A stretch of 64,000 nucleotides of DNA from Bacteroidota bacterium. Its GTDB lineage: Bacteria; Bacteroidota; Bacteroidia; Bacteroidales; JAAUTT01. Made by a program: the position numbers and the translations under genes. Below are positions 15,820 to 38,791 of the stretch, one piece after another; position 1 is the stretch's first letter; each line of letters begins with the position of its first letter. Below the pieces are notes generated by a model that was given only the letters and a program-made list of their open reading frames with translations, was not told where the DNA came from and did no database searches. The stretch is taken from NCBI GenBank assembly GCA_030706405.1, contig JAUZOO010000004.1, forward strand, positions 372,765 through 436,764. Reading direction: 5' to 3'.

Positions 15820-16470
15820 CAGCAACTAATTAATAAGTTAAAATTTCATTATCTCTCATAATCAATGATAAACCTCAAATAAAAATCAACTATTATTTTT
15901 TGTCATACTATTCTCCCTAACCATATCCATATTTCTTATGTATAAGCCGATTTTTTCATTCGAGCAGTTATTCTTCTAATTCAATTACCTTATTTACCCT
16001 GCTTTTAGTCTTTTTTACCGTCGCTCACATTGTTGTCCAGATGCATATTTGCATAATGAACTTAATGTCGATCATACTGGCAACTTTATATTTACGCCTA
16101 ATCGTGAAAAAAAACAATAACTCTGTTTATTTCTAAAACAATTTGAAGTAACTCGATTTCTTTTTGATGCATTTTTAAATTTCTACATCAATCTCTTCTA
16201 TTTGAATCTCTACAGATGTAATACGTTTTACATAGTCCTCAAAATAATGACATACCGAACTGTTAAGGCCCGTTGACGACTCATTTAATTTACATAATTA
16301 CCTGTAGATTATGGAGATAGAATTCCTCCTCAAGGTTTCCTAAGTCTTTTTAACCTTCAATTTTACTCCTGAAGCGTCTAAAAGATAATTGCCCCAATAT
16401 GGGCTTTGAGACAAATGATTACAACAAAAAATTACAAAAAGAGATAAAAACCAATAAAATTATGTGGTAA
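15820..16470. other. Promoter-containing gap upstream of the leftward GH43 gene
   Basis: This 650-bp AT-rich stretch has no credible gene on either strand. It must contain the promoter of the GH43 gene at 13837-15819, but I found no exact TAnnTTTG element on the minus strand. Confidence 0.4.
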
Positions 16471-16585: not shown

Positions 16586-17635
16586 TTACTTTTTTTCTAC
16601 AGTATAATATTCAGGACCTACAGCTCTGTCTCGTACAACCATCGTGTCTTTGGTTGCATATTTTAAGCCATAATTCTTTAAATTGACACTATAATCCAAG
16701 TAAAGCCCATCCCGGTCAATTCCACCTATACTATTTTTTTCTCCTTTCGACACAAACTTACCTGTACCTGAAATATCAAAACTGGTGGGATTATCACCGC
16801 TCACAGTACAAGTTCCATCGCTTGCAAAAGTCAAGACTAAATTAAATGAAACTTTTTGCGCCCCCCTTTTAATAGACAACGGCAAAGTTACAGTCGACAA
16901 TGAGGTTGTTGAAATTTTAACCAATTCATTATATTCAAGATACTGATTATGACGAACTGAATCGTTTACCACGGATCCATCCGATGTTTTAGTAATATGA
17001 TCGCCTCCCCTTCTCAAATAATTGCCATGCCATGGATTGACATACTTAACAACATAGAGGACAAAGTTCTGTGGCTTTATAGTCCAGTTGGCATCAACAC
17101 AAGGATTAGCATTATCAATCGCCGGTTTACCCTGAAGAATAGAGTCAGCTCCTTGTACTTTAGTCATCACCAAAGGAATGGCATAAGTATTTACTAAAGA
17201 CTTAGGATCTGCGAAAAAAGCATCCGTCAACGTTACCTCAACCCCACCCATAAGGCTTCCTGATGGAATTGAAATCTGGTTAGAAGCCAATTGATAATAA
17301 TTAGAAGGCATGGGTAGAAGCTTCGAACCTGTAGTACCTCCAGATTTAAAATAAATCCCATTGCAATACGACTCATCTACCTTAAAATCGATAACAATAT
17401 TGTTTTTATTATCATAAACACCTCCCGTCGTAGCCTTTATCAATACCTTATGCTGATTGTCGATGGTATTATCCACGAACAAATCATCTCCAAGCTCTAT
17501 GGTCCTGGCTGGATATTGATTGGCAAAATAGACAGTCTGGTAGTCAAAATCAGAAAAAGAAATATCCTGGTTCTTACATGAAGTCAGCACCCCAACGGCA
17601 ATTGACAACCCTATAAATATCTTATTCATTTTCAT
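16586..17635 (-). CDS. DUF1735/DUF4361-type surface lipoprotein (XusE-like glycan-binding protein)
   Basis: This 349-residue lipoprotein has a short signal ending in a lipobox (GVLTSC, Cys about 20). The N-terminal half, with FDYQTVYFANQYPART and the NTIDNQHK segment, is typical of the DUF1735 (BT_3987-like) domain. The C-terminal half is a beta-rich DUF4361-like domain. Such proteins follow tandem SusC/SusD pairs in xylan loci (the XusE position in Prevotella bryantii) and are regarded as surface glycan-binding proteins. It starts 33 bp after the SusD gene and is the last gene of the operon. Xylan binding is inferred from position, not from a visible binding site. Confidence 0.82.
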   Translation of the reverse strand: MKMNKIFIGLSIAVGVLTSCKNQDISFSDFDYQTVYFANQYPARTIELGDDLFVDNTIDNQHKVLIKATTGGVYDNKNNIVIDFKVDESYCNGIYFKSGGTTGSKLLPMPSNYYQLASNQISIPSGSLMGGVEVTLTDAFFADPKSLVNTYAIPLVMTKVQGADSILQGKPAIDNANPCVDANWTIKPQNFVLYVVKYVNPWHGNYLRRGGDHITKTSDGSVVNDSVRHNQYLEYNELVKISTTSLSTVTLPLSIKRGAQKVSFNLVLTFASDGTCTVSGDNPTSFDISGTGKFVSKGEKNSIGGIDRDGLYLDYSVNLKNYGLKYATKDTMVVRDRAVGPEYYTVEKK

Positions 17636-17668
17636 ATCTTATTAACAATTTAAGAATTAATTCAATAA

Positions 17669-19459
17669 TTACTTCCAGCCCTTATTCTGAACTAATTTAT
17701 TATACTTTAGCAACTCAGAGTAGGGAACAGGGCCGTAATACATGTAATCCTGATATGAACGTACCTCAACATTATTAAGAGGAGTATAAACATTGCCATT
17801 GACATTCATACCACGGGCTGTCTCTGTCAGGTTTGCCTTCCAGCGACGGAGGTCCCAAAACCGGAAACTCTCGAAGCATAATTCCAAACGACGTTCATTA
17901 CGGATCAATGCTCGCATTTTGTCTGGCGAGGCCGCACATTCGTCCAGATATGGGTCAGTAATTATCCCAAGGGCCCTCTTACGGATAGCTTTGACAATAT
18001 CATAAGCTGAATAAGCGTGAGTTCCTGTTCCTTTTGGCCCCCATGCCTCATTGGCTGCTTCAGCATAATTTAAGTACATCTCGGTATATCTGAGCCGGGG
18101 ATTAATATGATTTTTCCCCGTAGATGAAACAGAATTACAGTTCACATCCATCCGCAAACGTTTCTTCATATAGTAACCTGTACGGGTAGAAGTTTCCTTC
18201 ACACCAATCCCATCTTTACCAGATGCACTCCCCGTATAAATCACAGGACTCCCAACCCCTTCAGTATTACCATTATACACAATATACTTAGCCAGGCGCG
18301 GATCTCTTCCCGAATAAGGGCTAGATGCATTGTATCCGCTCTTGGCTTGGTCAGTATAATCGATTGGATAACCGTTGGCCATAGGAAAAGCATCTACAAG
18401 ATTTTGGGTAGGATTCATATATCCATTACCAAACAGAGAAGGCGGGAAATTTTGAGATTCCTGATCTTTATTATTAGTGGCTATATTCTCTCTCCAAATA
18501 ATTTCAGGGGGATTGGCCGCATTGGAAATTCCATCAATCTCATTACTAGTATTAGCATAGTAAGTGACCCCATTGGCAGCGAGCCCCCAATCCGGAGCGC
18601 CTGCAGATCCTCTCTTATAGTCAATCAATTTCGCAGCATAATCAGCAGCATCTGTCCAAGCCTGGATACTATTGGACGTATTGAACGCAGGACTGGCCGC
18701 CAGCAACGCTGTTCTGGCCCGATATGCCCTTGCGCACAACCCATTGAATAACTGGAGAGCATATTGTCCCATCACACGATTATAAACTGACTGAGTTGTT
18801 GTAATCGAATTGAAGGGCGCCGGAACCGCAGCAGTCCCTTTTAAATCCGCATACTCAACAGGCAAATTACGTTCTGCACTGTCTAGGTCCTGATAAATCT
18901 GTTTCACACATGCGCCAAAGGTACCACGAGGAAGGTTATAATCATCATGAATCCCCAAAAACTTAGTAATGATTGGTACGCCCATTAGCTGTCCATCATT
19001 CGTAAATCCGGCATGATTACGCAACAGATAGTACATATAGAGTGCACGCAACCCGTAAGCTTCACCTTTCATCCTCATATTAAACAGCTTATTGGCAGCA
19101 GGATCAGCAGCCCATGTTACACTGTCGGCATTTTGAAGGAACAAATTAAGATACTGTATGGCCCCGAATCCATTAGACCACTGATCTAAAGGATTATTAC
19201 TGGAAGCCCACGTACCTGTAGCCATTTTCAAAAAACTGTTACTTTTTTGATTGGTCACAGCATCATCCGTAGCATACTCACTATTGTCATAATAAGTTGG
19301 GATATATCTATATGCAGTAATAATAAACCCTTGTGCATAGCCTGCATCGGTATACATTTGCTCTAAATTCTTTAAATTTTCAGGAGCCGGGGTAAAAAGA
19401 TCCTCACAGCTTGAAAGAATCAAGGCAAATGCCAAAATAAATAATATATTCTTTTTCAT
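17669..19459 (-). CDS. susD: SusD/RagB-like surface glycan-binding lipoprotein (XusD-like)
   Basis: This 596-residue lipoprotein has the lipobox LILSSC (Cys about 18) and the alpha-helical TPR fold of SusD. Recognisable marks are the N-terminal helix region (NLEQMYTDAGYAQGFIITAY), MYYLLRNHAGF, and the C-terminal RRLELCFESFRFWDLRRWK, the most conserved stretch of the family. It caps the barrel of the partner SusC encoded 24 bp upstream and captures oligosaccharides at the cell surface. It belongs to the second pair of the tandem system, where related SusDs serve xylan uptake. Confidence 0.93.
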   Translation of the reverse strand: MKKNILFILAFALILSSCEDLFTPAPENLKNLEQMYTDAGYAQGFIITAYRYIPTYYDNSEYATDDAVTNQKSNSFLKMATGTWASSNNPLDQWSNGFGAIQYLNLFLQNADSVTWAADPAANKLFNMRMKGEAYGLRALYMYYLLRNHAGFTNDGQLMGVPIITKFLGIHDDYNLPRGTFGACVKQIYQDLDSAERNLPVEYADLKGTAAVPAPFNSITTTQSVYNRVMGQYALQLFNGLCARAYRARTALLAASPAFNTSNSIQAWTDAADYAAKLIDYKRGSAGAPDWGLAANGVTYYANTSNEIDGISNAANPPEIIWRENIATNNKDQESQNFPPSLFGNGYMNPTQNLVDAFPMANGYPIDYTDQAKSGYNASSPYSGRDPRLAKYIVYNGNTEGVGSPVIYTGSASGKDGIGVKETSTRTGYYMKKRLRMDVNCNSVSSTGKNHINPRLRYTEMYLNYAEAANEAWGPKGTGTHAYSAYDIVKAIRKRALGIITDPYLDECAASPDKMRALIRNERRLELCFESFRFWDLRRWKANLTETARGMNVNGNVYTPLNNVEVRSYQDYMYYGPVPYSELLKYNKLVQNKGWK

Positions 19460-19483
19460 TTTATATACTCTTTTAATTGTACA

Positions 19484-22294
19484 TTAGAAAGAAGCCTTAA
19501 ATCCAAGATTGAAAAAACGGCACTGAGGGGCACTTCCTACATTAGTTTCCATCAATTTACGCTCCCCGGATATAGTAAGCAGACTCTCTCCGCTGAAATA
19601 TACGCTCAAAGCATGAACAAACGATTTTTTCAGGATATCCGGATCTAAATCATACGTAAGCTGCACCCTCGACAAGTCAAAACGGTTCGTCTTGTACTGC
19701 CAGAAAGTAGAATTTTGGAAATTATTGCTATTGTCTGTGGTGGTCAAACGTGGATAGGTGGCCGTATTTTTAGTTGCATCGGTCCAACGTCCCCAAACAA
19801 CATCTGAATATTTACTACTACCCTTTACCCAATAATAGGAACTATTTTTGAAACCAATAGCCCCAGTACTTCCCGTCCCCATGGCAAACAAGGTGAAATT
19901 TTTCCATTTTAAGGTAACATTTACCCCATAGGTAAATGGAGAAGCAGACCAGCCATTGTGGCCAAGGTTAACCTGGTCCTTCGAATTTACCACACCATCA
20001 CCATTAACATCCTGATATTTAAGATCACCAGGCTGTACATTGCCAAAAGTCTGTTGGGCATGATTAGTGATGTCTGTCTGATCCTGGAAGAACCCTTCAC
20101 AAACATACCCCCAGTAAGAATCCAAGGGTTTTCCTGCACGGTTTTGGTAAGCATCCAGATAGGCCTCATCCCTGCGGACCGCCTCAGTTGTAAGGTACAT
20201 TCCGCAAAAACCGAGTGTAGCATCCACCTGACCAATTTTTTTGTTCAGGTTCAAAGCAAAATCCACGCCGGTACGCCTGTCTTTATTATAATTCAGATAA
20301 GGCGCGAAATCGGTATAATACGAAGGATAAATGGTAGAGAGCCCTTGAGTTAATAAACCATTTGTGGTTTGTGTAAAATAATTAGCATCCAATGTAACCA
20401 TCTTGTTTAAAAGAGAAGCTTCCAGCCCTACACGAAACTCCTCACGCTGAATGGGCTTCATCACTTCAGGATCATCTTGACGTTTGGAAAGTGTTGTCCA
20501 ACCTCCGGAATTTCCATCGCGATAGGTGTACCATCCTCCGTTTTTGACAAAATAGCCTTTATACATGTAAAAGTCGGAAATATCTATATCCTGATTCAAT
20601 TTTGAATAAGAAGCGGTAAGTTTCAAGTTGTCCACAAAAGCCACATTGTCCTTGAAAAAATTTTCACCACTAAGGCGCCAACCTAAAGTAACCGTTGGAG
20701 AGAAAGCATTTCGGTGTCCTTCTGGCAATTTAGCCGAATGCATTTCTGCGCCTGAAAAATCAAAATAGTATTTATGCTTATAATTATAGGCCGCCTGAAA
20801 ACCAAGGTTCACACTACTTAAACTATGATATTGACTGCTCGAGTGGTCTGCATCGTTGGAAGCCCGGTTCTGATAGCCCCATCCTACTAACGTGGCAGAC
20901 ACATTGTGATCCTGGGCAAATGTGCGGTTATAATCAAACTGAGCCCTAGCTGACATAGTTTGTGTGTACGTGCTGCTTCCTACCGTTTCACTGGTAGTAT
21001 TGCCGTCATTACCATACTTTGTTAAGGAAGTAATAACGTCAGTTCCATTCACAGTTGACCAGGTAGGCTGGTAAACAGCATAAGCGACCTTATAAGCTTC
21101 GGAATAAAAGTCGGTATAGTCCATACTAAAACCGCTCTTAAACGACAAGCCATTCAAAACCGACCCCAGATCAGCGTTCATATTTACATCAAACATAAAC
21201 GTACGGTTTTTGTTTTTGATATAACCGGCTGCAAGCATATCCGAAAAAGCATTGGTCTGGTCTGTGGAAGTACCTCCTAAAAGATATTGCCCGTCAATCA
21301 CATGATTGCTATTTTTCACCATCGTTTGAAGTGAAGAATTGGAAGGGTCAAGCATACTGATCGGGATCAAAGGGGATATCCAGTTGGGGCGCAAAGTAGC
21401 CGAAGTGCCCCAGAAATCTCCCCGTCCGGTATAATTATCCGAAATTACAGCAGTAGCACTCGTTGACGCTTTAAGCCAACTGGTCAGGACCATATCGACA
21501 TTAGACCTTAAATTCAACCGAAAATCGCTATTATTCTTCTGTTCGCCATATTTTACCAGGCTATTATTATAAGACAGTCCCACATTAGTATAATAACGGG
21601 TACGCTCATTCCCTCCATAGGCTTCAGCGGTCACGTCTGATTTATTATAAGCCTTTTTCAGATAATCAGAACTAAAAAAGTCAACATCCGGATAGCGGTA
21701 CGGATTGGTACCTGCCCTCGTATTATCAATTGTAGCTTGATCATATGGCAAAGGGGTGATCCCATCATTGGTGCAAGCCTCATTATAAAGTGTCATATAA
21801 TCTGCCGCGTTCAAATAATTAGGATAACGTTTGGGGACATACAACCCTGTATTGGCACGCACGTCAACTGTAAGAGGTTTATTCGTCCCCCGTTTCGTAG
21901 TGATAAGGACAACCCCTTTGGCAGCCTTACTTCCATACAATACAATGGCATTACCACCTCTCATCACGGTAATGGATTCGACTTCGGATAAACGGACATC
22001 CGACGCATTGCGGGGGATACCATCCACCAATACCAGGCCGGCCTGGCCCCAGATATTCCCATTATAGCCCCCTACAAAGCTCTGAAGGCCATCAAGGCTA
22101 TAAGTACCATAACTCTTCTTCATCAATTCGGAGGCACTGACTGAAGAGACGGCTCCCAGCAAATCCTCTTTGGCTACCTTTCCAAAAGCAACATTTACAA
22201 GACTGTCCTTCTTTTCCTGCGCTTGTACACCGGTCCAATTTAAAAAAGACAGGGCGACAAGGGCATAACAGACATTTATTATTTTTTTCTTCAT
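19484..22294 (-). CDS. susC: SusC-like TonB-dependent outer-membrane importer lacking the N-terminal regulatory domain (XusC-like)
   Basis: This 936-residue SusC-type TonB-dependent receptor has a signal peptide to about residue 25 (GVQAQ). It enters almost at once into the plug (EDLLGAVSSVSASEL, LVLVDGIPR, AIVLYGSKAAKGVVLITTKRG) and then the 22-strand barrel, ending in an aromatic final strand (FFNLGFKASF). The carboxypeptidase-regulatory-like (CarboxypepD_reg) domain usual in SusC is missing, so it is shorter than the usual ~1000-1100 residues. This reduced form is the second SusC of tandem xylan systems. It imports oligosaccharides with the SusD encoded 24 bp downstream. The gene lies 79 bp after the first SusD of the operon. 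Confidence 0.93.
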   Translation of the reverse strand: MKKKIINVCYALVALSFLNWTGVQAQEKKDSLVNVAFGKVAKEDLLGAVSSVSASELMKKSYGTYSLDGLQSFVGGYNGNIWGQAGLVLVDGIPRNASDVRLSEVESITVMRGGNAIVLYGSKAAKGVVLITTKRGTNKPLTVDVRANTGLYVPKRYPNYLNAADYMTLYNEACTNDGITPLPYDQATIDNTRAGTNPYRYPDVDFFSSDYLKKAYNKSDVTAEAYGGNERTRYYTNVGLSYNNSLVKYGEQKNNSDFRLNLRSNVDMVLTSWLKASTSATAVISDNYTGRGDFWGTSATLRPNWISPLIPISMLDPSNSSLQTMVKNSNHVIDGQYLLGGTSTDQTNAFSDMLAAGYIKNKNRTFMFDVNMNADLGSVLNGLSFKSGFSMDYTDFYSEAYKVAYAVYQPTWSTVNGTDVITSLTKYGNDGNTTSETVGSSTYTQTMSARAQFDYNRTFAQDHNVSATLVGWGYQNRASNDADHSSSQYHSLSSVNLGFQAAYNYKHKYYFDFSGAEMHSAKLPEGHRNAFSPTVTLGWRLSGENFFKDNVAFVDNLKLTASYSKLNQDIDISDFYMYKGYFVKNGGWYTYRDGNSGGWTTLSKRQDDPEVMKPIQREEFRVGLEASLLNKMVTLDANYFTQTTNGLLTQGLSTIYPSYYTDFAPYLNYNKDRRTGVDFALNLNKKIGQVDATLGFCGMYLTTEAVRRDEAYLDAYQNRAGKPLDSYWGYVCEGFFQDQTDITNHAQQTFGNVQPGDLKYQDVNGDGVVNSKDQVNLGHNGWSASPFTYGVNVTLKWKNFTLFAMGTGSTGAIGFKNSSYYWVKGSSKYSDVVWGRWTDATKNTATYPRLTTTDNSNNFQNSTFWQYKTNRFDLSRVQLTYDLDPDILKKSFVHALSVYFSGESLLTISGERKLMETNVGSAPQCRFFNLGFKASF

Positions 22295-22373
22295 TTTATC
22301 GCTAGTTTAATATTAAACAGTTAATTACCGGTAATCGTCAGCTTCGCCAACGTTTCACGATAATTTGTTTTCA

Positions 22374-24305
22374 TTACCATCCCGGATTCTGGCTAAACCC
22401 TTTGTACAGGTTCACATCAGATGTCAGAAACGGGAACCAATAGTTTCTTGGCCCAAATTGTCTTTCTATTATAACAGTTTCCCTGAAGTTCTTCACGTGC
22501 CCGTTTTGAGGATTTTGGTACAATACACTGCTCGGCACATCGTTGGCCCGATCAAACTCAATTCCCTTCTTTAATGTATAAGGCCTCTTGTCCAATAGCA
22601 ACCAACGACGAAGATCTACAAAACGATGGCCTTCGAATGCCAATTCAACGGCACGTTCCCGTCGTAACTCACCCATAAAAAGATCCGGATCGTCAACAAA
22701 TTTTTGAGCGACCTGCCCAACACCCGCTCTATCGCGAATTACATTCACAGCCTTTTGCGCAGTGAGATAATAATTCGGGTCTTTCCCTTGCGATCCACCG
22801 TAAGCTACTGCAGCTGCTTCTGCATACATCAGATAAACATCGGCCAAACGCATAAATGATAATGACATGGTTGTACCCTTTACATAACCATCCCAGTCGT
22901 TCATCAATCTTGGGAGAAATTTGGTAAGTATATATCCCGTTGTCATTCCTTTTGCCCCGGTAGTACCTCCTGTCCGATAGGCCCCTCCCGAATAAAGGGC
23001 TGCATATTGAACATTTTCAGCCAATTTACTATTCAACGCACATTTAGCTCCATCAAACATTATATCAGTATAAAACCGAGGGTCCCTGTTTTTCCAGGGA
23101 TATTCCGGATCATACCCAGATTCAGGGTCCTTAACTGTAGGATCCTTAATAGGCATCCCATTAGCCATTCCATAATAATCTATATAGTTAGCCGTAGGTG
23201 AACATTTTATACCAGAATTATTAATAGATGCCGGACGATAGTCATTCGTCTGGTTCCACTGAAAACGGCCAGCAACCTCTGCCGTATTTTCCATAAAAAT
23301 GGCCTCTCTTACCACTTCTCCATTAACAGTGGCCGTTCCTGGGAGTTTACCACCCTGGTTGTAAGTATAGAATAAATCCGAATAATTGCTAAAAGGAACT
23401 AAACCATAACGCTTAGTAGATTCACAAAGTTGAAGGGCCTGTGCAAATGCATTTGTTGCTTTTTTGCAGTAGTCTATATCATAAGTCTGTTTACCTGTTG
23501 ATGCACTATTCATCAAAGGACTGCCTGCCCAAAGTAAATTTTTGCCCAAATAGGCAAGCGCCATAATCTTATTAATGCGCAAATTGTTATTTCCTGGCGT
23601 TAAATTCTGTTTCACCGTTGTCTGGGGCCAATCAATCTTGTCCCAATCAACCGGCAACAAATCTGCAGCTTTCTGAAAATCTTTAGCAACACTGTCGGCC
23701 AGGGCCTGGTAACTCAGTCGTGGAAGTTGCGGGGCCTGATCGGAAGGCAATACTGAATTAACGTAAGGCAAGCCGCCCCAATACTGCATTAACATGAAGT
23801 GAAACCAGCCTCTAAAGAAATACAACTGTCCGGCAATAAGGTTTTTCTCCACATCAGAGGCTTCAGTCAGTTTATCCAGATTAGCAATCCCTATGTTAGC
23901 CTTTCGGATACCGTACCAGCTCAATCCCCAAAGATTCCCTTTATCTCCACGGGTATTAGAAGAAGGCACTCCCCCATTTTTAAACCAGGAACCAAATATG
24001 GCATTATTCCAAGCTCTATAATCCCCCTGGTCTACATTATAAGCAAACAAACGGGATTCTCCTAGTTCCCATAACTCCTCTTCCCCAAAATTCCAATTAT
24101 TATGGGACCCTATAGCTGTTACTAAAGGTATACAGTTATACAACTCTTCCGTAAAACCTTGGAAATTCGTAAAATTTTTATAGGCATCTGTCGGGCTTAT
24201 ATCACTAAGGGGTGACTTATCCAAATAATCAGTACAGGAATTGAACCCGAAAAAGCTCACTATCAATGCAGATGACATTAATATTTTGCTAAAATATTTT
24301 TTCAT
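22374..24305 (-). CDS. susD: SusD/RagB-like surface glycan-binding lipoprotein (XusB-like)
   Basis: This 643-residue lipoprotein has the lipobox GFNSC (Cys about 24). SusD family marks are the early DYLDKSPLSDISPTDAY segment, YFFRGWFHFMLMQYWGGLP and the C-terminal RRERAVELAFEGHRFVDLRR. The family reads oligosaccharides at the cell surface and forms the lid of SusC. The start lies 11 bp from the stop of its SusC gene, which indicates tight co-translation. It is the first SusD of the tandem pair system, in the position of XusB, a documented xylan binder in related loci. The ligand assignment here is by context. Confidence 0.93.
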   Translation of the reverse strand: MKKYFSKILMSSALIVSFFGFNSCTDYLDKSPLSDISPTDAYKNFTNFQGFTEELYNCIPLVTAIGSHNNWNFGEEELWELGESRLFAYNVDQGDYRAWNNAIFGSWFKNGGVPSSNTRGDKGNLWGLSWYGIRKANIGIANLDKLTEASDVEKNLIAGQLYFFRGWFHFMLMQYWGGLPYVNSVLPSDQAPQLPRLSYQALADSVAKDFQKAADLLPVDWDKIDWPQTTVKQNLTPGNNNLRINKIMALAYLGKNLLWAGSPLMNSASTGKQTYDIDYCKKATNAFAQALQLCESTKRYGLVPFSNYSDLFYTYNQGGKLPGTATVNGEVVREAIFMENTAEVAGRFQWNQTNDYRPASINNSGIKCSPTANYIDYYGMANGMPIKDPTVKDPESGYDPEYPWKNRDPRFYTDIMFDGAKCALNSKLAENVQYAALYSGGAYRTGGTTGAKGMTTGYILTKFLPRLMNDWDGYVKGTTMSLSFMRLADVYLMYAEAAAVAYGGSQGKDPNYYLTAQKAVNVIRDRAGVGQVAQKFVDDPDLFMGELRRERAVELAFEGHRFVDLRRWLLLDKRPYTLKKGIEFDRANDVPSSVLYQNPQNGHVKNFRETVIIERQFGPRNYWFPFLTSDVNLYKGFSQNPGW

Positions 24306-24316
24306 GTTCTAATCAA

Positions 24317-27478: not shown

Positions 27479-28484
27479 TATACTACTAATTAATTTGATT
27501 TTGCATTTATCACCTGATGATAAAATTTAAACTTATACACAAAATTTTCTTAATTCTTGGTGTATTTAATAATACATTCATAAAGATAAGCAATTAGCTG
27601 TCGTTAATAATCCTAATCATAAATTGTAAGTTTTAATTGTTTAGTTAGTTGACAATAGAACTTTTATAAAAACTAGCTCTATGCCTTTTTATGTTTATGC
27701 ACAATAGAAGCATTATTCACTACAAGTATATTCAGGCCCAATCCCGGAAAGATATCCATCAAAATTCTGCCATATATCCAAATGCACAGAGGACCGACGA
27801 ACAAACCTGTCCGTAGAAAGCCTTGTATGAATAAGCAATAACCTTTAAGGTTTATCCGTAAAACAATAGTGATATTTCGGCAATTTTGAGGTAATTAAAG
27901 AAGCCGTATTCTCTGACATTTTCATATTCCACAATAGGAACATGATTGGAGTCCCAAAGGGAGCCTTAATTTTTAGAAGTTGTGTAATCATACATTAGCT
28001 AGTTAGTCAGTACTTAAATCTCGACCAATTATTAGGTCCGGATCAAAGATATTTTCACCTTGAGCATTCGTTGTTATCACTGAGTAACAAAAAAAAGTAC
28101 CACAGTAACAACTAACCCAAAACACAATTAACCAAAAACTTACACTAACTAAAAACACAAAACATTGAAGGAATATACAAATGAACAGCTTACTTAAAAC
28201 TGCCTACCGAAGATAATTTCAGCTTCCACTGGTTAATTTTCCAGTTCATGCCTAGACAAAAAACAAACCATGTAATGAACCCTTCATTGGGTCATTCGAG
28301 CTTTCCGCTTAAAAAATGCGATCAACCTTTGGCAAAAGGCTCTTTAAAATATCTGTAATTACGCATATAAGGTTGGGGGAGGCATCTCCTACCTATTACT
28401 ATAAACTCAGGAGATCAATCAATATAAAAAACCTCCTTCTTCAATTCGTCTCAATAAAAACGAATAATCCGGAGGCCATTTCAG
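27479..28484. other. 1-kb upstream region of the tandem sus operon
   Basis: This gap between the two leftward sus operons should hold the HTCS-responsive promoter of the operon at 27478. It is AT-rich with no credible gene. A small hairpin with one bulge (AATGAACCC near 28276 with GGGTCATT near 28298) and an ATTCGT/ACGAAT repeat near 28446-28466 are visible. I found no exact TAnnTTTG on the minus strand. Confidence 0.4.
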
Positions 28485-28524
28485 AAGAGACTGCCATCCT
28501 TGTTGTAAAAGAAGACAGTCTCTT
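28485..28524 (-). terminator. Probable terminator of the third sus operon
   Basis: A 9-bp perfect stem, AAGAGACTG (28485-28493) with CAGTCTCTT (28516-28524), has a 22-nt loop and lies 50 bp beyond the SusD stop. There is no clear T-run on the minus strand; the T-rich side is on the plus strand. The assignment rests on position. Confidence 0.4.
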
Positions 28525-28574
28525 TCCATTTTATAAATATTTGTAAATTTTATTTCAATTAACTTCTTACCATA

Positions 28575-30563
28575 TTATTGATTATACCCGGGATTTTGAT
28601 AAGCTGCTTTTTCCTCGGTTGTCATATCCAGGTTATCAATTTGCCCTTGCGGAATAGGACGCAGATAATAATGATGTGTTGCATCATTCAAAAGATCGGT
28701 ACGGGTTACCGTTACCGGTTTATGGTCATTAAGGTCTTTCCCGCAAATTGTATAAGTTGCGGCAATTTCTTCCCATTTTTGGGTACGCACTAAATCATAC
28801 CAGCGGTAGCCTTCGCCATAGTACTCGCGCGAACGTTCGGCCAATATGTAATTTACATCTATAGTTGCAGGCGTTGCAGCTACCATAGCTGCACTGTTAT
28901 CTTGCACTTTAACAACATTTCCGCCATTGCTCCAGCGCCACATTCCGGCACGCGCACGAATCACATTAATCAATGCCCTGGCGCTTCCATCTGTTCCTGC
29001 TACGGCCTTTATAGTCGCGCCCTTCACTGCGGCTTCAGCAGCAAGAAAGTACAGCTCGGATAATTTAGCTACAACAAATGGACGGGTACTACCTGCATTA
29101 GGAGACCCCAGCCCTACACCATTATCCGTCCGGTAAGGGCCAAGTTTCCAAAGACCAGGGTAAACAAGCCGGCTTATACCACTCGGAGAGATTACATAAT
29201 CAGCCCTGCCGGGCAATACACCTGCGCCTACAGCACTATTAAAAGTAGTATTGGAATAATCAATAGTTCCTGTCGGCTCATTATCCAAAAATGTCAGCAC
29301 TGCATCACCTTGGGCAATCAGCATATTGTTTGCATTATACAAGGTAGCATTGGTAATACCAGCTTTATTAAAGTTGGCACGGTAAACTGTGGTGAATGTA
29401 CCATCGTACCGTGAATCATTCGTCTTGTCGGCAAAAGTGTTGGTAAACACATCAATCGGAGGTGCCAGACGGACCCAGGGACGGCCTAACGATTGGACGG
29501 CTTCACGTTGTACTGAATTAACAACTGTTTTGGAGCTCCAATTTGTCTTAGAACTTGCAATGGCTGTGTAATTCCATGTTAAAAACCAGCCTGCAAAATT
29601 AGCACCATTACCTCCTGATTCATAAGAAAGACTTGCCCCATTGTACAGTTCACTTGTTTGGGTATGGTCGGCATACAGAATAGCTTCCTTGTTATAGTCG
29701 TTAGTACCTACGTTAACGTCATAATAGGTTGTTTGTAAAGCGTAATTTGTACCTGCCCCACTTATGCCAGCTGTTGCCATATCGTAGGCTGCCTGATAAT
29801 ACCATTGGGCATTATGTCCGTCAGGGTCAGTTCTTGTACTTGCCGGATAGGTAGGGATATTTTTAGGGTTTTCAAGCCACCACGCATAGGTCAGGTAAGC
29901 TTTTGCCAACAATAAGCGTGCAGCGGTTTTAGTTGCGCCGCCGGTTACACGTGGTGCATCGGGCAAATCATTTAGCGCTGTCAACAAGTCCGGGAACACC
30001 GCTTTAGTATAAACTTCCGGCACAGTGTTACGTACAGATGTTCGAACCGTTGAAGTATTGAATTTCAGCACACCTGAGCCTAAATCAAGAGGCACTCCTC
30101 CGAATGTTTGCACCAACAAAAAATAATCAAATGCTCTGAAAAGCCTGGCTTCCGCAATAATAGCCGCACTAATGGTCCCTAAAGCAGTAGCATTTTCAAT
30201 AACACCACTGGCCGTATTGATATTCGTAAATGCAGTACCCCAAAGCACTCCTGCATCGTTTTGGGTAGGCGACAGCAAACCTTTGCCCGATAAGTCATGA
30301 TATGCAAAGTTACTGGCATCACCACTTGCTCCCCATGTTGCCTCATCAGTACCGGTTTCGCAGTGATTTAAGTAATATCCATTTCCATACAGTTGGCGTA
30401 AATGTTGGTACATTCCGGTTACGCCCCCCATAATACCTGCCTGCGTTTTGAAATAATCAGGAGTATAAATAGCGCGAGGTTGTTCGTCCAAAATATTAGA
30501 GCATCCAGCCAGGAACATTATCAGGAGTGCTGTTCCTATAAATTTTATAGGTGTATGTTTCAT
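28575..30563 (-). CDS. susD: SusD/RagB-like lipoprotein of the FecR-controlled pair
   Basis: This 662-residue lipoprotein has the lipobox MFLAGC (Cys about 21) and SusD marks: the helical start TPDYFKTQAGIMGGVTGMY, RLFRAFDYFLLVQTFGGVP, and the C-terminal AERSREYYGEGYRWYDLVRT. It starts 11 bp after its SusC gene. It is clearly different from the two SusD proteins of the tandem operon and probably recognises another part or form of the polysaccharide. The ligand is unknown. Confidence 0.93.
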   Translation of the reverse strand: MKHTPIKFIGTALLIMFLAGCSNILDEQPRAIYTPDYFKTQAGIMGGVTGMYQHLRQLYGNGYYLNHCETGTDEATWGASGDASNFAYHDLSGKGLLSPTQNDAGVLWGTAFTNINTASGVIENATALGTISAAIIAEARLFRAFDYFLLVQTFGGVPLDLGSGVLKFNTSTVRTSVRNTVPEVYTKAVFPDLLTALNDLPDAPRVTGGATKTAARLLLAKAYLTYAWWLENPKNIPTYPASTRTDPDGHNAQWYYQAAYDMATAGISGAGTNYALQTTYYDVNVGTNDYNKEAILYADHTQTSELYNGASLSYESGGNGANFAGWFLTWNYTAIASSKTNWSSKTVVNSVQREAVQSLGRPWVRLAPPIDVFTNTFADKTNDSRYDGTFTTVYRANFNKAGITNATLYNANNMLIAQGDAVLTFLDNEPTGTIDYSNTTFNSAVGAGVLPGRADYVISPSGISRLVYPGLWKLGPYRTDNGVGLGSPNAGSTRPFVVAKLSELYFLAAEAAVKGATIKAVAGTDGSARALINVIRARAGMWRWSNGGNVVKVQDNSAAMVAATPATIDVNYILAERSREYYGEGYRWYDLVRTQKWEEIAATYTICGKDLNDHKPVTVTRTDLLNDATHHYYLRPIPQGQIDNLDMTTEEKAAYQNPGYNQ

Positions 30564-30574
30564 TGCTTTATGTT

Positions 30575-33500
30575 TTAAAATGTTACATTAAGGCCAATCA
30601 AATAATTACGGGTTGTAGGCGTATTGACCGCTATAGTCAGCAAACGTCTCTGAGCGTATGACAATGGTACAGCCGCATTTTCGTTGCCATATGAGTTGGT
30701 TTCCGGATCCATACCCGATTCTTTAGTGTAAGGAGAGAACATTACAAATGGATTTTCCACAGTGCCATAAATCCGCAACTTTTCAATACCTGCGAACTTA
30801 AGCCATTTAGGATTAACAGAATATCCAAGAGTTATGGTGCGCACCTTCAGGTATGACGCATCAAAGTAGCCCAAAGTACTGGCATATTTTGGATTGTCAC
30901 CGCCAACCCCGTTGGGTTTGGGATATTTAGCCCCGGTGTTGGTTGGGGTCCAGTAATCAACTCTCACATTATTACCCGATCTTGTATTCATATTATTAAG
31001 GTAGCTTGCCCCTCCATATAGGGTACTCATTACAATACCTCCGCTTTTGAAGGTACCAATAACGCTCAGGTCGAACCCTTTATAACCCACACGGGTATTG
31101 AAACCACCCTGAAAGTCTGGTGTAATGTCCATAATTTGCCGATCGGCAGGTCCAATTGCCCTGGTAGGTTTTCCATCAGCATCGTAGGTTCCGGAATATT
31201 GTACTTTAATCATCCCTACGTTGGAAGAAGTTCCCGGCTCCAATGTACTCATATACTTATCATCTGCTTGCCAAAGTCCTATTTTCTTATAATCATAAAT
31301 TGCATCTATAGGATGGCCAACAAACCATGAATTACCCTCATCTCTGGTTGCTCCTGAAGCAAGTGCCAACAACTTATTGTGGTTAGAATATACATTTACG
31401 CCAACCTCCCAGGTCCAACCATTAAAATTGTTCAATATCACACCATTTAAAGACAGCTCAAAGCCCTTGTTCTGGGTTTCACCAATATTGGCTGTATAGG
31501 AACTTACTCCCGATGATGAAGGCATACCAACATCCATCAGTACATTTTTAGTCTTCATGGTATAATATTCAACTGTACCGGACAGACGGTTCTTCAGGAG
31601 GGTAAAATCTAAACCATAATTATAGGTTGTGGAGAATTCCCACCCCAATTTAGGATTGGGCAGTTTAGTTACAGAGAAACCGGTAGAGTAGGTACTACTA
31701 CCAAAGTTATAAGGATTAGCAGACATAATCCCTAGTGTAGCATAAGGAGCAACAGCCTGATTAGAGGTTTCTCCATACCCCACACGTAATTTCAAATTAT
31801 CTACCCATGTAACATCCTTCATAAACGATTCTTTATTGATATTCCATCCGACAGACACTGCAGGATAGGAATGCCATTTATAACCAGGCGCAAGTATTGA
31901 AGATGCATCAGAACGATATGTAACGCTCAACATATAACGATCATCGTAAGAATACATCACACGTCCCATATAGGACATCAACCCACTTTTCGTGTAAAGT
32001 TGATTATTAGGATCAACCGTAATGTCGGTAGAAGCTGCTCTTCCTAAATTATAGAATTGAAAGAAATCGGCAGGAAGATTTTTTGCTGATACTTGTGACT
32101 TATTGTATGTAGTTTGCTCTGCAGAGTACATCGCTACCACATTAACCTTATGTTTCTCGGCAAAAGTGCGGTCGTAGGTCAACAGGTTTTCAATTGCCCA
32201 GTTAATAGTATGCTCGTTACTAATACTAGCTGTTGAAGGATTTGTCGGTGTGCCACTGAACACTCCAATTCCGGTATAATTGCCATAGTTGCTTTGACGA
32301 TAATTCAAACCCAGGTTAACACGTGCCTTTAACCCCTCTACGCCAGGAATTTTCACTTCTCCGAAAGCAGAATTGTAAGAGCCAAAAGCTCTGGTCTGGT
32401 CAATATATTGATCTCCCAAAGCCTCTATAGTTGATCTTGTAGATACCCATTGAGCACCTGAAGTAGCCTCCTGGATTCTCGTTTTCATCGTTCCGTCAGC
32501 ATTATAAATATTGGCAATTGGCGACCTTGCCAAAGCGTTACCCACGGCACCAAGATTATTGGCATTATTGATAGAATAATTACTGTTCGAAGAAAAACCA
32601 AAGTGTACGTAATTACCGATAAGCTGATCGAGTGATGCACGCATAGAATAACGGGTAAAGTTTTGCAACGGAATAACAGCTTGATCTTTGAAATATCCCA
32701 ATCCAAAATTATAGCTTCCTTTTTCGTTTCCGCCCGTAATACCTAAATCATGATTTGTTACGGTTCCGGCTTTATATAAAAGGTCCTGCCAATCTGTATT
32801 TACATCGTTCGATTCATCAATTGTATTTTTAGATTGATTGTTCGATGCAGCACGAAGGGCTACAAACTCAGGACCGTTCATCATGGGGTATTTGGCAAAA
32901 ATCGGTTTCGTCCCAAAATATCCATTATAAGAAACTTGCGCTTTTTTTCCTTTTGACCCGTTGTTTGAGGTTACCAGGATAACCCCGTTGGCACCACGTG
33001 AACCATAAATAGCGGTGGCGGAAGCATCCTTTAAGATATCAATACTTTTAATATCGTCGGTACTAATATCACTGATAGATCCGGCAAAGGGAATACCATC
33101 AAGCACGATCAACGGATCGTTGGTAGCAATGAGCGAACGCGAACCGCGGATACGGATTTGCATTGATGAACCCGGCTTAGATGATGTCTGCGACATTTCC
33201 ACACCCGCAATACGGCCTTGCAAGGCCCTGGAAATATCAGAAGCCGGGATATCCCGCAATTTATCACCCTTCATGGACGCAACCGAACCGGTCACGGCTT
33301 CCTTCCGTTGATTTCCATAACCAACAACAACAACCTCTTCCAGTTTCTTCACATCAGGCTTCAGTTTAATATCGATAGTCGATTTACCGGCTACACTGAC
33401 CGTTTCTGAAGCATATCCAATAAAAGAAAAAGTAAGGATCGCATCCGGAGAAGAAATATCGATGGAATATTTCCCATTTACATCCGTTACAGTTCCCTTC

Positions 33501-33946
33501 TGGGTACCTTTAATCATAATGGTTACAGCCGGAATAGCTTCACCGGTTGTTTCGTCAACAACGGTTCCGGTTACTTTTTGTTGCTGAAGTTCCTTGGCCG
33601 GAGCAATTACGATAAGATTATCTTCAAGGATTTTATAAGACATCCTGGAGGAACTTAATAATTGATCCAATACCTGCATGATTGACTTATTGGACACATT
33701 TAACGACACGGTTTTACTAAGTTCGAAGAATGCATCGTTAAAAAAGAACCGGTATTTTGTCTGTCCCTCAATCGTTCTCAAAACTTCTTTTATCGCCTGA
33801 TCTTTTACCTTAAAATTAAGACATTGCCCCTTGGTGGTTACAGAGGCAGAAATCTGCCACATACATAAACCCAAGGTTAAGATAGTTAGTTTCATACGTA
33901 ATGTTAGTTTTTTATAAAACTTGAGAAAGTTTCGTTGTTTTTTCAT
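30575..33946 (-). CDS. susC: SusC-like TonB-dependent transducer with STN signalling domain
   Basis: This 1123-residue SusC has, after the signal peptide, a secretin/TonB short N-terminal (STN) domain (about 45-118, IKEVLRTIEGQTKYRFFF then MSYKILEDNLIVI). A CarboxypepD_reg domain (about 125-200), the plug (VVVGYGNQRKEAVTGSV, ATAIYGSRGANGVILV) and the barrel follow. An STN domain identifies a transducer that passes a substrate signal to a FecR anti-sigma factor, as in FecA. The matching fecR and ECF sigma genes lie directly upstream. It forms a pair with the SusD encoded 11 bp downstream. The cargo is unknown, but xylan-derived sugars are likely from the surrounding genes. Confidence 0.95.
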   Translation of the reverse strand: MKKQRNFLKFYKKLTLRMKLTILTLGLCMWQISASVTTKGQCLNFKVKDQAIKEVLRTIEGQTKYRFFFNDAFFELSKTVSLNVSNKSIMQVLDQLLSSSRMSYKILEDNLIVIAPAKELQQQKVTGTVVDETTGEAIPAVTIMIKGTQKGTVTDVNGKYSIDISSPDAILTFSFIGYASETVSVAGKSTIDIKLKPDVKKLEEVVVVGYGNQRKEAVTGSVASMKGDKLRDIPASDISRALQGRIAGVEMSQTSSKPGSSMQIRIRGSRSLIATNDPLIVLDGIPFAGSISDISTDDIKSIDILKDASATAIYGSRGANGVILVTSNNGSKGKKAQVSYNGYFGTKPIFAKYPMMNGPEFVALRAASNNQSKNTIDESNDVNTDWQDLLYKAGTVTNHDLGITGGNEKGSYNFGLGYFKDQAVIPLQNFTRYSMRASLDQLIGNYVHFGFSSNSNYSINNANNLGAVGNALARSPIANIYNADGTMKTRIQEATSGAQWVSTRSTIEALGDQYIDQTRAFGSYNSAFGEVKIPGVEGLKARVNLGLNYRQSNYGNYTGIGVFSGTPTNPSTASISNEHTINWAIENLLTYDRTFAEKHKVNVVAMYSAEQTTYNKSQVSAKNLPADFFQFYNLGRAASTDITVDPNNQLYTKSGLMSYMGRVMYSYDDRYMLSVTYRSDASSILAPGYKWHSYPAVSVGWNINKESFMKDVTWVDNLKLRVGYGETSNQAVAPYATLGIMSANPYNFGSSTYSTGFSVTKLPNPKLGWEFSTTYNYGLDFTLLKNRLSGTVEYYTMKTKNVLMDVGMPSSSGVSSYTANIGETQNKGFELSLNGVILNNFNGWTWEVGVNVYSNHNKLLALASGATRDEGNSWFVGHPIDAIYDYKKIGLWQADDKYMSTLEPGTSSNVGMIKVQYSGTYDADGKPTRAIGPADRQIMDITPDFQGGFNTRVGYKGFDLSVIGTFKSGGIVMSTLYGGASYLNNMNTRSGNNVRVDYWTPTNTGAKYPKPNGVGGDNPKYASTLGYFDASYLKVRTITLGYSVNPKWLKFAGIEKLRIYGTVENPFVMFSPYTKESGMDPETNSYGNENAAVPLSYAQRRLLTIAVNTPTTRNYLIGLNVTF

Positions 33947-33977
33947 ATTTTTGTGTAGTTATTTTTAGACAATAGTG

Positions 33978-34066
33978 CCCCATCTCCATTTTAGGTGGGG
34001 TACGTTGAACTTCTAAGAATTATAGATTTTTTAAGACCGGGCATTGTTGTAGGAGACCTGCCCGGT
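33978..34066 (-). promoter_or_regulatory. Two adjacent hairpins between fecR and susC
   Basis: Hairpin A: CCCCATCT (33978-33985) with AGGTGGGG (33993-34000), 8 pairs including one G-U. Hairpin B: perfect ACCGGGCA (34036-34043) with TGCCCGGT (34059-34066). B lies 61 bp beyond the fecR stop, and A ends 32 bp before the susC start. On the minus strand neither is followed by a clear U-run; the T-run flanks B on the plus side. They may be an internal terminator/attenuator or stabilising 5' leader structures separating regulator from transporter expression. Confidence 0.45.
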
Positions 34067-34126
34067 TTATTTTTTTGTTAGGGTTAGTTCATAGGCTGAA
34101 TGGAATTTTAGTTAGACATAGTTAGT

Positions 34127-35278
34127 TTATTTGATTATATCCTGATAGTTTGCACTTCGTTTCCGTTCCTCTTTGATAGACACAACCCCTTTATTAATTT
34201 CATATTTAATCGGAGCAGTAAGTTCTATTACATTTAGGATCTGTTCTAAAGTCTCTTTGTTGAATCGTCCTGTAAATCGGTATTGGTTTAGCCTTGGAGA
34301 TTCAATCTGCACGGTCACGTTAAATTTCCGTTCAAGTATCTGACTTATATTTTCAAGCGATTCCGAATTTATAATCCAGATATTATCCTTCCATGAGGTA
34401 TAAATATTGGTATTGACATCAGAGTCAACCTTAACACCATTATTAACAGCCAGATCACTGCCCCTTCCAAGGCCTTGGGTTTGGGTTGTATTTTCATCAT
34501 CCGGCAAATTGCCCTTTGGGCAGTCCTGTGCCTCTTTCGTCAATACAACTACCTGTTTGGGTTTGAGCATTATATTTACGCCCTTGCCTTCTATTTTAAC
34601 TTTTCCTTCCACAAGTGTTGTTGTTACCTCCCGTTCTTCAGGGTAGGCTTTCACATTAAATGAAGTCCCCAGGGCTTTTATCTTTACCCCGAAAGCATCT
34701 ACAACAAAAGGCTTTTGAGGATTTTTCACAACCGAAAAATACCCTTCCCCTTCAAGATAAACATTTCGGTTAGTAAACCCATAATTACCCTTGTACCGCA
34801 AACGGCTCCCGGCATTCAACCACACATGGGTGCCGTCTGGCAAAACCAGCTCACTTTTTCCTCCTTTGGGGACTATAATTTCATGAACAACTTCACTTAA
34901 TTGTCTATTAGGTCCCCCTTTCGAAAGCAACAGCGTTGCTATTGTCCCCAAGGAAAAAAACAACATTACGGACGCTACGGCCAATAACCTATAAGTAATT
35001 TTCCATCTTTTTGCAGCATTTTCGGCATTATCAGAGGTTTCTATTTTATCCTTTAACTGATTCCATGCACCTTGTTTATTACCGGATATTTTTCCGCTAA
35101 CTTGAGAAACCGAAGTTAAGTCATAAAGGTTCTGGCATGACTTATAAAACTTTCTGTTTTCTTCAGACTCCTGAAGCCAATTGAGTAACTTACTCTTTTC
35201 TTCTTCGGATGCCTGATTCGACAAATAACTATAAATTAACAATTTGTATTCCTGATTTATATTTTCTTGTGAGTCCAT
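34127..35278 (-). CDS. FecR-family anti-sigma factor
   Basis: This 383-residue inner-membrane protein starts at the ATG at 35278 (MDSQENINQEYK), preferred over an in-frame TTG at 35287. A cytoplasmic N-terminal anti-sigma region (about 1-80) precedes one membrane helix (about 88-108, LLAVASVMLFFSLG). The periplasmic FecR domain (IIVPKGGKSELVLPDGTHVW, then NVYLEGEGYFSV) is followed by a C-terminal DUF4974 domain (NISQILERKFNVTVQI, FTGRFNKETLEQIL). Such proteins hold the ECF sigma factor inactive until the STN domain of the cognate SusC signals substrate. It lies between the sigma gene and susC, the standard order. An unusual insert rich in polar residues sits between the FecR and DUF4974 domains. 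Confidence 0.93.
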   Translation of the reverse strand: MDSQENINQEYKLLIYSYLSNQASEEEKSKLLNWLQESEENRKFYKSCQNLYDLTSVSQVSGKISGNKQGAWNQLKDKIETSDNAENAAKRWKITYRLLAVASVMLFFSLGTIATLLLSKGGPNRQLSEVVHEIIVPKGGKSELVLPDGTHVWLNAGSRLRYKGNYGFTNRNVYLEGEGYFSVVKNPQKPFVVDAFGVKIKALGTSFNVKAYPEEREVTTTLVEGKVKIEGKGVNIMLKPKQVVVLTKEAQDCPKGNLPDDENTTQTQGLGRGSDLAVNNGVKVDSDVNTNIYTSWKDNIWIINSESLENISQILERKFNVTVQIESPRLNQYRFTGRFNKETLEQILNVIELTAPIKYEINKGVVSIKEERKRSANYQDIIK

Positions 35279-35452
35279 AGTATACAATCTATTTATAAGA
35301 CGAATATTTACATTTGATAGGGTGACAGGATTTCTATTTTTTTAACAACAGGGCAATATTTTTTTACATCAAGTCGTTTTTTTGACTTTATAATAAATGA
35401 AAAGCTAATTCCTATAGAGAGTTTTGAATTCGGCAGATTTAGGAATGAGGTA

Positions 35453-36010
35453 TTAAAGATATTCCCCCAGTTGTTGCCGTAAGCTATCGATAGCTCGGCC
35501 AATTTGAGTTTTAACCGTATTGACAGATATATTAAACCGTTCAGAAATTTCGTTATAGGTAAGAAGTTCAAACCGGCTCGAACAAAAAATTTCCCGGCAT
35601 TGTTTGGGCAGTTGATTAATTGCTTCATGAACATCATGTTCTACCTCTTCAAGCTGAAGCATATTAAAAATATACTCTTCATTGACGCCTACCATCTCCA
35701 TAATTTGATCGTCGATTTCAATAAACGATCGCTGACCTGATGCTTGTTTCTGCCTGAGGCAGTCGGTGCTTGCATTAAAGACACTCCGAAAAAGGTAGGG
35801 CTTAATCCCGTAATTAATTTGTATTTTATCGCGTTTCTGCCATATTCTCAGAAATACATCATTAACAATTTCCTGCGCTTCCGCTTCATTTTTCAGGATA
35901 CCCAATGCATATAAATATAAGGTATCATAAAAACGTCGAAACATTAATTCAAATGCTTTATTATCGCTATTTCGAATTTTTTCCCAAATGCTTTCGTCAG
36001 TCAGTATCAT
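35453..36010 (-). CDS. ECF-type RNA polymerase sigma factor
   Basis: This is a 185-residue sigma-70 family protein starting at the ATG at 36010 (MILTDESIWEKI); an in-frame GTG at 36028 is a less likely start. Region 2 is visible (FELMFRRFYDTLYLYALGI, VNDVFLRIWQKR), and region 4 has the helix-turn-helix LTYNEISERFNISVNTVKTQ. There is no region 3, as expected for ECF factors. With the FecR protein and STN-SusC downstream it forms a complete outer-membrane-to-cytoplasm signalling chain, expected to activate the susC/susD genes at 33946-28575. The gap to fecR is 174 bp, so fecR may also have its own promoter. Confidence 0.94.
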   Translation of the reverse strand: MILTDESIWEKIRNSDNKAFELMFRRFYDTLYLYALGILKNEAEAQEIVNDVFLRIWQKRDKIQINYGIKPYLFRSVFNASTDCLRQKQASGQRSFIEIDDQIMEMVGVNEEYIFNMLQLEEVEHDVHEAINQLPKQCREIFCSSRFELLTYNEISERFNISVNTVKTQIGRAIDSLRQQLGEYL

Positions 36011-38782: not shown

Positions 38783-38791
38783 CTTTTTTAC

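Follow-up and report, generated by a model that had tools for sequence, protein, structure and literature searches.

The stretch of DNA considered here (hereafter the window; 64,000 nucleotides, positions 372,765 to 436,764 of contig JAUZOO010000004.1, assembly GCA_030706405.1, from a member of the Bacteroidales lineage JAAUTT01) is part of the contig designated C16 in a 4.9-Mb genome, and contains three SusC/SusD pairs, of which the third is the main subject of this analysis. On the minus strand, this pair is preceded by genes for an extracytoplasmic function (ECF) sigma factor and an anti-sigma factor in the order ECF-FecR-SusC3-SusD3, with the FecR gene (PF04773 and PF16344) sitting between the sigma gene and the transporter gene. 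In the scans with Pfam and NCBIfam, the ECF protein matches TIGR02985 at 147.1 bits, above the cut-off of 126.4, and SusC3 carries an STN domain (PF07660, 35.6 bits with a cut-off of 28.4, 7.9e-09) that is not reported for SusC1 or SusC2. The other two pairs form a tandem set on the same strand, SusC2-SusD2-SusC1-SusD1, closed by a BT_3987-like protein (27478 to 16586), and a hybrid two-component system (HTCS) gene is also present. The parts described in an earlier sequence-only reading, that is, the three pairs, the FecR and ECF genes, the STN on the third SusC, the HTCS and a DUF1735-type protein in the tandem operon (PF08522, which we take to be the former DUF1735), are real and were rightly placed (Table 1), and the end point given there, 36010, is an in-frame ATG of the ECF gene. 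The SusD model has 41 matches in the genome and the ECF model 29, of which 11 exceed its cut-off; such parts are therefore common, and it is their combination that needed testing. Rfam and tRNA scans of the window returned no matches.

Table 1. Features of the window, with the evidence for each (GH, glycoside hydrolase; CBM, carbohydrate-binding module; HTH, helix-turn-helix; ORF, open reading frame; L031, the locus with the closest SusC body)
Feature	Position	Strand	Evidence
HTCS	9090..13241	+	Pfam: Reg_prop propeller, Y_Y_Y, HisKA, HATPase, receiver, AraC HTH
GH43 + GH43_C2 + CBM6 enzyme, between HTCS and tandem operon	13837..15825	-	domain scan
BT_3987-like_N (PF08522) / DUF5627 protein, tandem operon	16586..17635	-	domain scan
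SusD1 (tandem)	17669..19459	-	domain scan
SusC1 (tandem)	19484..22294	-	domain scans; no N-terminal carboxypeptidase-like extension reported
SusD2 (tandem)	22374..24305	-	domain scan
SusC2 (tandem)	24317..27478	-	domain scan
Hairpin behind SusD3	28475..28535	-	-21.2 kcal/mol, z -5.2, 0/200 shuffles as stable
SusD3	28575..30563	-	phmmer to 7nek; 86% identity to L031
SusC3, whole gene	30575..33946	-	domain scans
SusC3 plug + barrel (body)	30575..33334	-	87% identity to L031; body tree
Putative recombination junction, TonB box (VVVVGYG, residues 205-211)	33306..33340	-	blastn edge + changepoint
SusC3 N-terminal signalling module (STN + carboxypeptidase-like extension)	33335..33946	-	PF07660, PF13715
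FecR anti-sigma factor	34127..35278	-	PF04773, PF16344; ORF call from TTG at 35287, ATG at 35278
ECF sigma factor	35453..36010	-	TIGR02985; longer ORF call to 36028

The ECF-FecR-SusC3-SusD3 set looks like a transcription unit of its own, since SusD3 is followed by a hairpin and by a gap of 1096 bp to SusC2. The predicted fold of this hairpin, which the terminator scan did not list, is likely to mark the end of the third-pair transcript. The Bacteroides-type -33/-7 promoter pattern gave one strict minus-strand match, which lies within coding sequence, and sigma-70-type sites in 26000-40000 were no commoner than in shuffles; as these promoter searches gave nothing usable, the operon limits rest on the gaps and one hairpin, and we propose no target motif for the ECF. 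Immediately before the ECF gene, on its upstream side, 36477-37160 (minus strand) encodes a 227-residue predicted secreted protein with no match in Pfam or NCBIfam, and homologues of it (about 31% identity) adjoin an ECF gene, on the opposite strand, in two Sunxiuqinia loci (L048, L062; loci and genomes used for comparison are referred to by L and G numbers).

Sequence comparisons indicate that the third pair most likely belongs to the xylan business of the region and is unlikely to be an unrelated neighbour. SusD3 matches PDB chain 7nek_A over residues 25-661 (phmmer, 3.7e-245, 818.6 bits; next best chain, 8.8e-12), which is the SusD of a xylo-oligosaccharide polysaccharide utilization locus (PUL), F5, from an uncultured Bacteroides, with 99% DNA identity to BVU_0037-0043 of B. 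vulgatus, and the F5 SusC/D is reported to import xylo-oligosaccharides up to a degree of polymerization of 3 (PMC9599597). By hand mapping, the GRPW motif of SusD3 corresponds to the glycerol-holding residues R347 and W349 of 7nek, and R339 of the same site is a serine in SusD3. The scan of genome contigs yielded at least 80 relatives of SusC3, and GH67 or GH115 genes lie in reach of 53 of the 94 loci compared versus 0 of 50 control ECF loci, the controls being shorter stretches tested with another program; in the window itself, the bank upstream of the third pair, with GH67, GH8, GH115 and GH43, is a xylan-enzyme neighbourhood. Relatives of SusD3 occur in 18 of the 295 genomes of the order, and those of SusC3 in three of the five genomes of the genus and family (the same five) and in 11 of the 395 of the class, the window's own genome being included each time; the other ten matches in the class never cover the STN part.

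In six Pedobacter loci, the SusC3/SusD3 pair comes after tandem-set genes on one strand, either directly (L104, SusC2-SusD2-SusC1-SusD1-BT3987N-SusC3-SusD3) or with one to three genes between them (L050, L056, L057, L060, L061), and in these six no ECF or FecR was found over the thresholds, so that tandem set and third pair travel together elsewhere under other regulation. An arrangement of two adjacent but independent loci, with the ECF/FecR/SusCD unit serving an unrelated glycan and merely lying beside xylan genes, would suit the separate transcription unit suggested by the anatomy, and has a precedent in B. xylanisolvens and B. ovatus, for which one study describes an ECF/anti-sigma SusCD beside a xylan core (PMC4855328); it is nevertheless unlikely in view of the SusD3 type, the GH67/GH115 counts and the Pedobacter gene order. 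The proposal that two signalling systems of different kind are present in one xylan region is upheld, and the contrary case, a third pair responding to an unrelated glycan, is made improbable by the 7nek match and the enzyme counts.

The signalling half of the third pair has a different affiliation from that of the transporter. In what follows, the cassette comprises ECF, FecR and the N-terminal module of SusC (N-module), and identities are given in the order ECF/FecR/N-module/body/SusD, in percent. Compared with L031, the locus with the closest body (a Prolixibacteraceae metagenome-assembled genome, 531-kb contig), the window shows 27/33/33/87/86, the three cassette values being no more than background. 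The DNA similarity between the two consists of one blastn stretch of 4758 bp at 78.9%, from 33340 to 28584, the end of SusD3; position 33340 is codon 203 of susC3, at the TonB box, and upstream of it no blastn match was found at 1e-5. The nearest relatives of the window cassette are found on unrelated transporters, L216 of the same genome for FecR and N-module (37/50/55/31/29) and L226 for the ECF (53/47/43/31/29). As regards the body, its 87% identity to the Prolixibacteraceae locus, versus about 65-68% to members of its own genus (G169/L032, G262), suggests that the transporter itself was transferred horizontally.

The same pattern recurs among the relatives. L055 and L089 (28/31/54/94/96) have closely similar transporters, and their cassette partners are on unrelated transporters of genome G295 (L055-L246, 72/63/75/35/30; L089-L244, 79/64/65/36/34); L042 (with L240) and L032 (with L229) also have a cassette partner on an unrelated body, at 54-67%. 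In L118, the FecR is a fragment, whose match on an unrelated body of its own genome (L262) reaches 80% identity. In the changepoint analysis, the breaks of the window, L042 and L118 coincide with the TonB box; those of L055 and L089 lie close to the border of STN and extension, and that of L032 is within the extension. In the third pair, a conserved transporter thus appears to have had its signalling half exchanged in one piece, and related bacteria appear to have repeatedly exchanged the sensing module for unrelated ones, joined inside the importer gene. SusC/SusD exchange by programmed inversion is already known; what these comparisons would add is exchange between species, with sigma and anti-sigma factor included. 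Among the open-licence PubMed Central papers listed, judged by title and beginning of the abstract, none describes an exchange of ECF-FecR-STN cassettes between SusC bodies.

These differences could also arise without any exchange, if ECF, FecR and STN evolved so much faster than the body that orthologous cassettes came to look unrelated. ECF and FecR do fall below the body in vertically inherited pairs (79-83% where the body is at 94-97%), and bodies near 60-70% identity are without a vertical control. The drop in these pairs is small, however: L048-L062 gives 79/81/84/94/93, with one 8.2-kb DNA alignment running through ECF, FecR, SusC and SusD, L226-L227 gives 74/75/84/84/80, L229-L269 gives 83/81/93/97 (SusD left out), and L282-L283 gives 95 for the N-module, 81 for the upstream ORF and 96 for the body. 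Moreover, a cassette on the sister body is a far more distant match than one on an unrelated body (L055-L246, L089-L244 and, for FecR, L118-L262), the DNA similarity ends abruptly inside susC, and trees with a single clade are rejected. Evolution by rate differences only is therefore strongly disfavoured and hardly credible as the source of the pattern.

In support of exchange, the ten STN-bearing members (45 pairs) have a median identity of 66.5 for the body, and of 28.9 for ECF (36 pairs), 31.9 for FecR and 39.0 for the N-module; the values are 28.9, 31.9 and 38.7 without the pair L048-L062. Pairs with unrelated bodies have medians of 32.3 for ECF (1277 pairs), 32.1 for FecR (1320 pairs) and 36.4 for the N-module, so that the ECF and FecR medians of the ten members, being no higher, are at background level. 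The FecR tree requires eight label changes for the ten members, all forced by supported branches, and a single clade is rejected for FecR (p 8e-9), for the N-module (10 rows, p 2e-4) and for ECF (9 rows, p 1.8e-4); the group of ten is defined by the body, the tests were picked with the identities already known, and branches in the FecR tree are long. A wider comparison used 53 cassette sets, defined by a FecR over 60 bits, an ECF and a SusC N-module, plus L118 without ECF (loci missing one part being excluded), 48 of which have all five parts. Within these 48, the nearest neighbour agrees in 20 between ECF and FecR, in 19 between FecR and N-module and in 16 between ECF and N-module, and in 23 between body and SusD; across the joint, agreement falls to five (FecR-body), four (ECF-body) and seven (N-module-body). 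The parts, the transporter family, the mosaic with its sharp junction and the unrelated cassettes on close bodies can be read directly from the sequences.

A mosaic of this kind might also represent one state of an active, programmed shufflon, as in B. fragilis, where inversions at three SusC/SusD clusters are attributed to the invertase Tsr0667 (PMC4747536); receptor shufflons under one transcription factor are likewise described for B. thetaiotaomicron (PMC12548429). Among the 15 inverted pairs listed for 28000-38800 (arms of at least 20 nt), none has an arm at 33306-33340, no site-specific recombinase was found among the 29 window proteins scanned, and the cassettes compared are mostly in different organisms. 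The repeats around the third pair being short and weak, active shuffling is kept as a rival only, and a very improbable one. As to generality, two other STN-SusC proteins of the same genome were each searched in the 295 genomes. One of these families again has long and short N-terminal forms, and its long-form pairs from different genera have bodies at 41-63%, a level at which exchange is not separable from decay; the second protein has two relatives besides itself, at 43-44%.

The type of control also varies among the relatives of the transporter. A profile built from the STN parts of the 53 cassettes, which includes the nine long relatives of SusC3 themselves, matches all nine (94-134 bits) and none of the other 85, which were searched in frame and in six frames upstream. 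FecR is present at the nine STN-bearing loci and at 0 of the other 85, and ECF at eight of the nine, the ninth (G006) being cut by the contig end, and at one of the 85 (L106), where it lies 6 kb away on the opposite strand. PF07660 is over its cut-off in the seven scanned of the nine ECF/FecR-linked relatives, and HTCS genes are in reach of 18 of the 94 loci. Prolixibacter denitrificans (L082) has an ECF-linked SusC3 and an HTCS next to each other. A tree of 95 SusC bodies, window included, requires the STN state to change five times, each time forced by well-supported branches; in it, G262, which is of the window's genus and has an HTCS at 530 bp on its upstream side, groups with full support as sister to the ECF/STN member L032. 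The tree and the 94-locus count leave out G029 (SusC in pieces) and G169 and G018, whose contigs equal those of L032 and L106, respectively, in length and gene content.

The regulator type is currently used to guess the diet of a PUL, ECF pointing to host glycans and HTCS to plant glycans, and ECF systems are prominent for O-glycan loci of gut symbionts according to a review (PMC10766802). The sequence-only reading had followed this rule, which is not supported here. The cassette does not follow the glycan class: behind matching cassettes there are genes for GH43 and GH92 (L246), a carboxylesterase and GH2 (L244), two sulfatases (L240), GH30 (L262), and a heparinase-II/III-like protein and GH88 (L226), and for the one protein scanned behind the L216 cassette no match was obtained. 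This weakens the view of ECF/FecR as a general mark of host glycans. Nor is ECF/FecR versus HTCS supported as a predictor of substrate class: the same transporter family occurs with HTCS, with several unrelated ECF cassettes, or with neither nearby, and cassettes close to those of this family stand elsewhere beside GH92, sulfatase, GH30 or heparinase-like genes. Since this transporter family carries varied and apparently exchanged cassettes, ECF control does not predict the glycan here; if cassettes are exchanged between transporters, a guess based on the regulator is not safe, and it is the transporter body that should guide the inference.

The HTCS had been regarded as the neighbour of the tandem operon, and this holds only in part. 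An HTCS is indeed present nearby, 3.3 kb from the tandem operon, but the convergent GH43 gene (595 bp from the HTCS) lies between them, and the HTCS is the last gene of a plus-strand run that starts outside the window with a fourth SusC/SusD pair (L009:9404-14486). This fourth pair, accompanied by NHL and BT_3987-like proteins, is located just left of the window (C16:360802-368299, plus strand; L009); as it heads the HTCS run, the HTCS is not assignable to the tandem set by position alone. Besides its own paralogue, the window HTCS has relatives at E 1e-200 in only three of the 295 genomes (G006, 61%; G247, 41%; G262, 36%), too few orthologues for its targets to be deduced by synteny. That paralogue, a second HTCS (C16:492560-496702, plus strand; L144), is 64% identical, lies about 107 kb away and diverges from the head of the enzyme bank, which makes it the better positional candidate for control of the bank. 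In the tandem operon itself, SusC1 is without the N-terminal extension and shows by eye no VVVGYG TonB box, and the same short form is found in three Pedobacter loci.

The enzyme bank, on the minus strand upstream of the ECF set, comprises GH67, GH27, GH43, GH8, two GH115 and a SASA esterase in the window, and extends for tens of kb beyond it with GH31, GH29, GH115, GH127, GH43, GH27, GH2, GH97, GH95, esterases and a major facilitator superfamily transporter. Six long GH115-like genes, three by Pfam and three by similarity, occur within about 90 kb (window 51424-62243, L011, L138, L139), with GH115 fragments in the same region (C16:500957-501669). At 37597-38499 (minus strand) there is a GH2 remnant in which an N-terminal sugar-binding part, with a weak match below the Pfam cut-off, abuts the C-terminal domain 5 (PF18565), the catalytic barrel not being found in the Pfam scan. 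Between this remnant and GH67, an imperfect inverted repeat at 38614-38780 (arms 22-25 nt, 84-95% complementary) resembles a small non-coding element. Between GH8 and GH115, 48301-51279 (minus strand) encodes a 992-residue protein that combines a Listeria-Bacteroides repeat with a type IX secretion sorting tail and whose N-terminal start resembles, by eye, a GH30 enzyme.

As enzyme genes, ECF operon and tandem operon stand in series on the minus strand, the ECF might be thought of as a master switch for tandem operon and bank as well, with one inducer for the whole region. This is doubtful, because the 1096-bp gap and the hairpin separate the third pair from the tandem set, the second HTCS diverges from the head of the bank, and relatives of the transporter with other cassettes, or with none, have similar enzymes nearby; no promoter motif was shown for or against it.

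Taken together, these data point with good probability to the third pair as an importer of xylan-derived oligosaccharides, presumably xylo- or glucuronoxylo-oligosaccharides, and as one that came under different control when its signalling cassette was replaced. Recombination within susC, at the TonB box, would have joined this cassette, consisting of ECF, FecR and the STN with the N-terminal extension (the first ~204 residues of SusC), to the conserved plug-barrel-SusD body. In FecIRA-type systems, the working transporter signals through its STN to FecR, and the sigma factor is freed. By the same route, import through SusC3/SusD3 would be signalled by the STN to FecR, and the freed ECF would transcribe at least its own operon, so that import itself may be the signal and substrate specificity may reside in the body and not in the cassette; for the SusC of ECF/anti-sigma PULs, the STN domain is reported to have a part in anti-sigma signalling (PMC7782687). 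By analogy, the tandem SusCDCD would be a separate unit, presumably under an HTCS sensing a periplasmic oligosaccharide, and one polymer would then likely be perceived through two kinds of input, import through a particular pore and a periplasmic product. The recombination origin, the signalling steps, the inducers and the regulon are what we infer from the arrangement.

Several observations weigh against this interpretation. On the side of function, the F5 SusD alone reportedly does not bind xylo-oligosaccharides (PMC9599597), GH67/GH115 were not found near 41 of the 94 relatives, and the SusCD of the neighbouring ECF/anti-sigma PUL was reportedly not xylan-induced in B. xylanisolvens (PMC4855328), which is the main caution against deducing function from adjacency. 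On the side of exchange, the parts of the cassette share their nearest neighbour in only 16-20 of 48 sets, so that the cassette may be reshuffled internally; the nearest relatives of the window cassette are only 50-55% identical, too distant to point to an immediate donor; for L082 and L048/L062, the set holds no other body with a closely related cassette; several contigs compared come from metagenome assemblies and are short (L055, 11 kb; L032, 14 kb); and in L118 the FecR is cut off by the contig end.

With considerably less assurance, though on balance still favoured, ECF-FecR-STN systems may be plug-and-play sensors that report a working transporter rather than the identity of its glycan, a single recombination event, either at the TonB box or in the extension preceding it, sufficing to move the whole circuit between SusCs, across species and glycan classes. 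If so, the type of control in Bacteroidota would be interchangeable and not tied to the substrate, and hybrids engineered at this joint would be expected to signal for the new substrate. For the construction of sensors for chosen oligosaccharides, the TonB-box joint found in nature shows where to cut, and it can be used to test directly whether transport or ligand is what ECF systems sense.

Among known systems, the F5/BVU_0037-0043 PUL shares with the window the 7nek type of SusD with its GRPW motif and the xylan-enzyme neighbourhood; it differs in that the window SusC, whose uptake function is a prediction, has an STN with ECF/FecR and is set in a very large xylan region. FecI/FecR/FecA-type signalling has the same succession of ECF, FecR and STN transporter with the defining domains, whereas the window unit is a mosaic in which cassettes differ between close transporters and the joint lies inside the transporter gene. 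Tandem susC/D-HTCS xylan PULs presumably include PUL-XylL of B. ovatus. PUL 43 of B. xylanisolvens, another of this type, resembles the window in its tandem pairs, HTCS and GH43/GH115 (PMC4855328), and an HTCS of this species has been shown to cross-regulate a second xylan cluster (PMC4855328); the window region differs by its third pair, predicted to be ECF-controlled, its fourth pair outside the window and its two paralogous HTCS. Compared by their published description (PMC4855328), PUL 70 of B. xylanisolvens and PUL 92 of B. ovatus likewise place an ECF/anti-sigma SusCD beside a GH67/GH10/GH2 xylan core with the HTCS elsewhere; there, the SusCD is not xylan-induced and was judged a separate PUL, unlike the transporter family of the window, which is xylan-linked. 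Finally, the SusC/SusD shufflons of B. fragilis (Tsr0667) and B. thetaiotaomicron reportedly also put SusC/SusD under different control by recombination; in the window, no inverted repeat at the junction and no invertase were found, and the exchange would have taken place between species and over evolutionary time.

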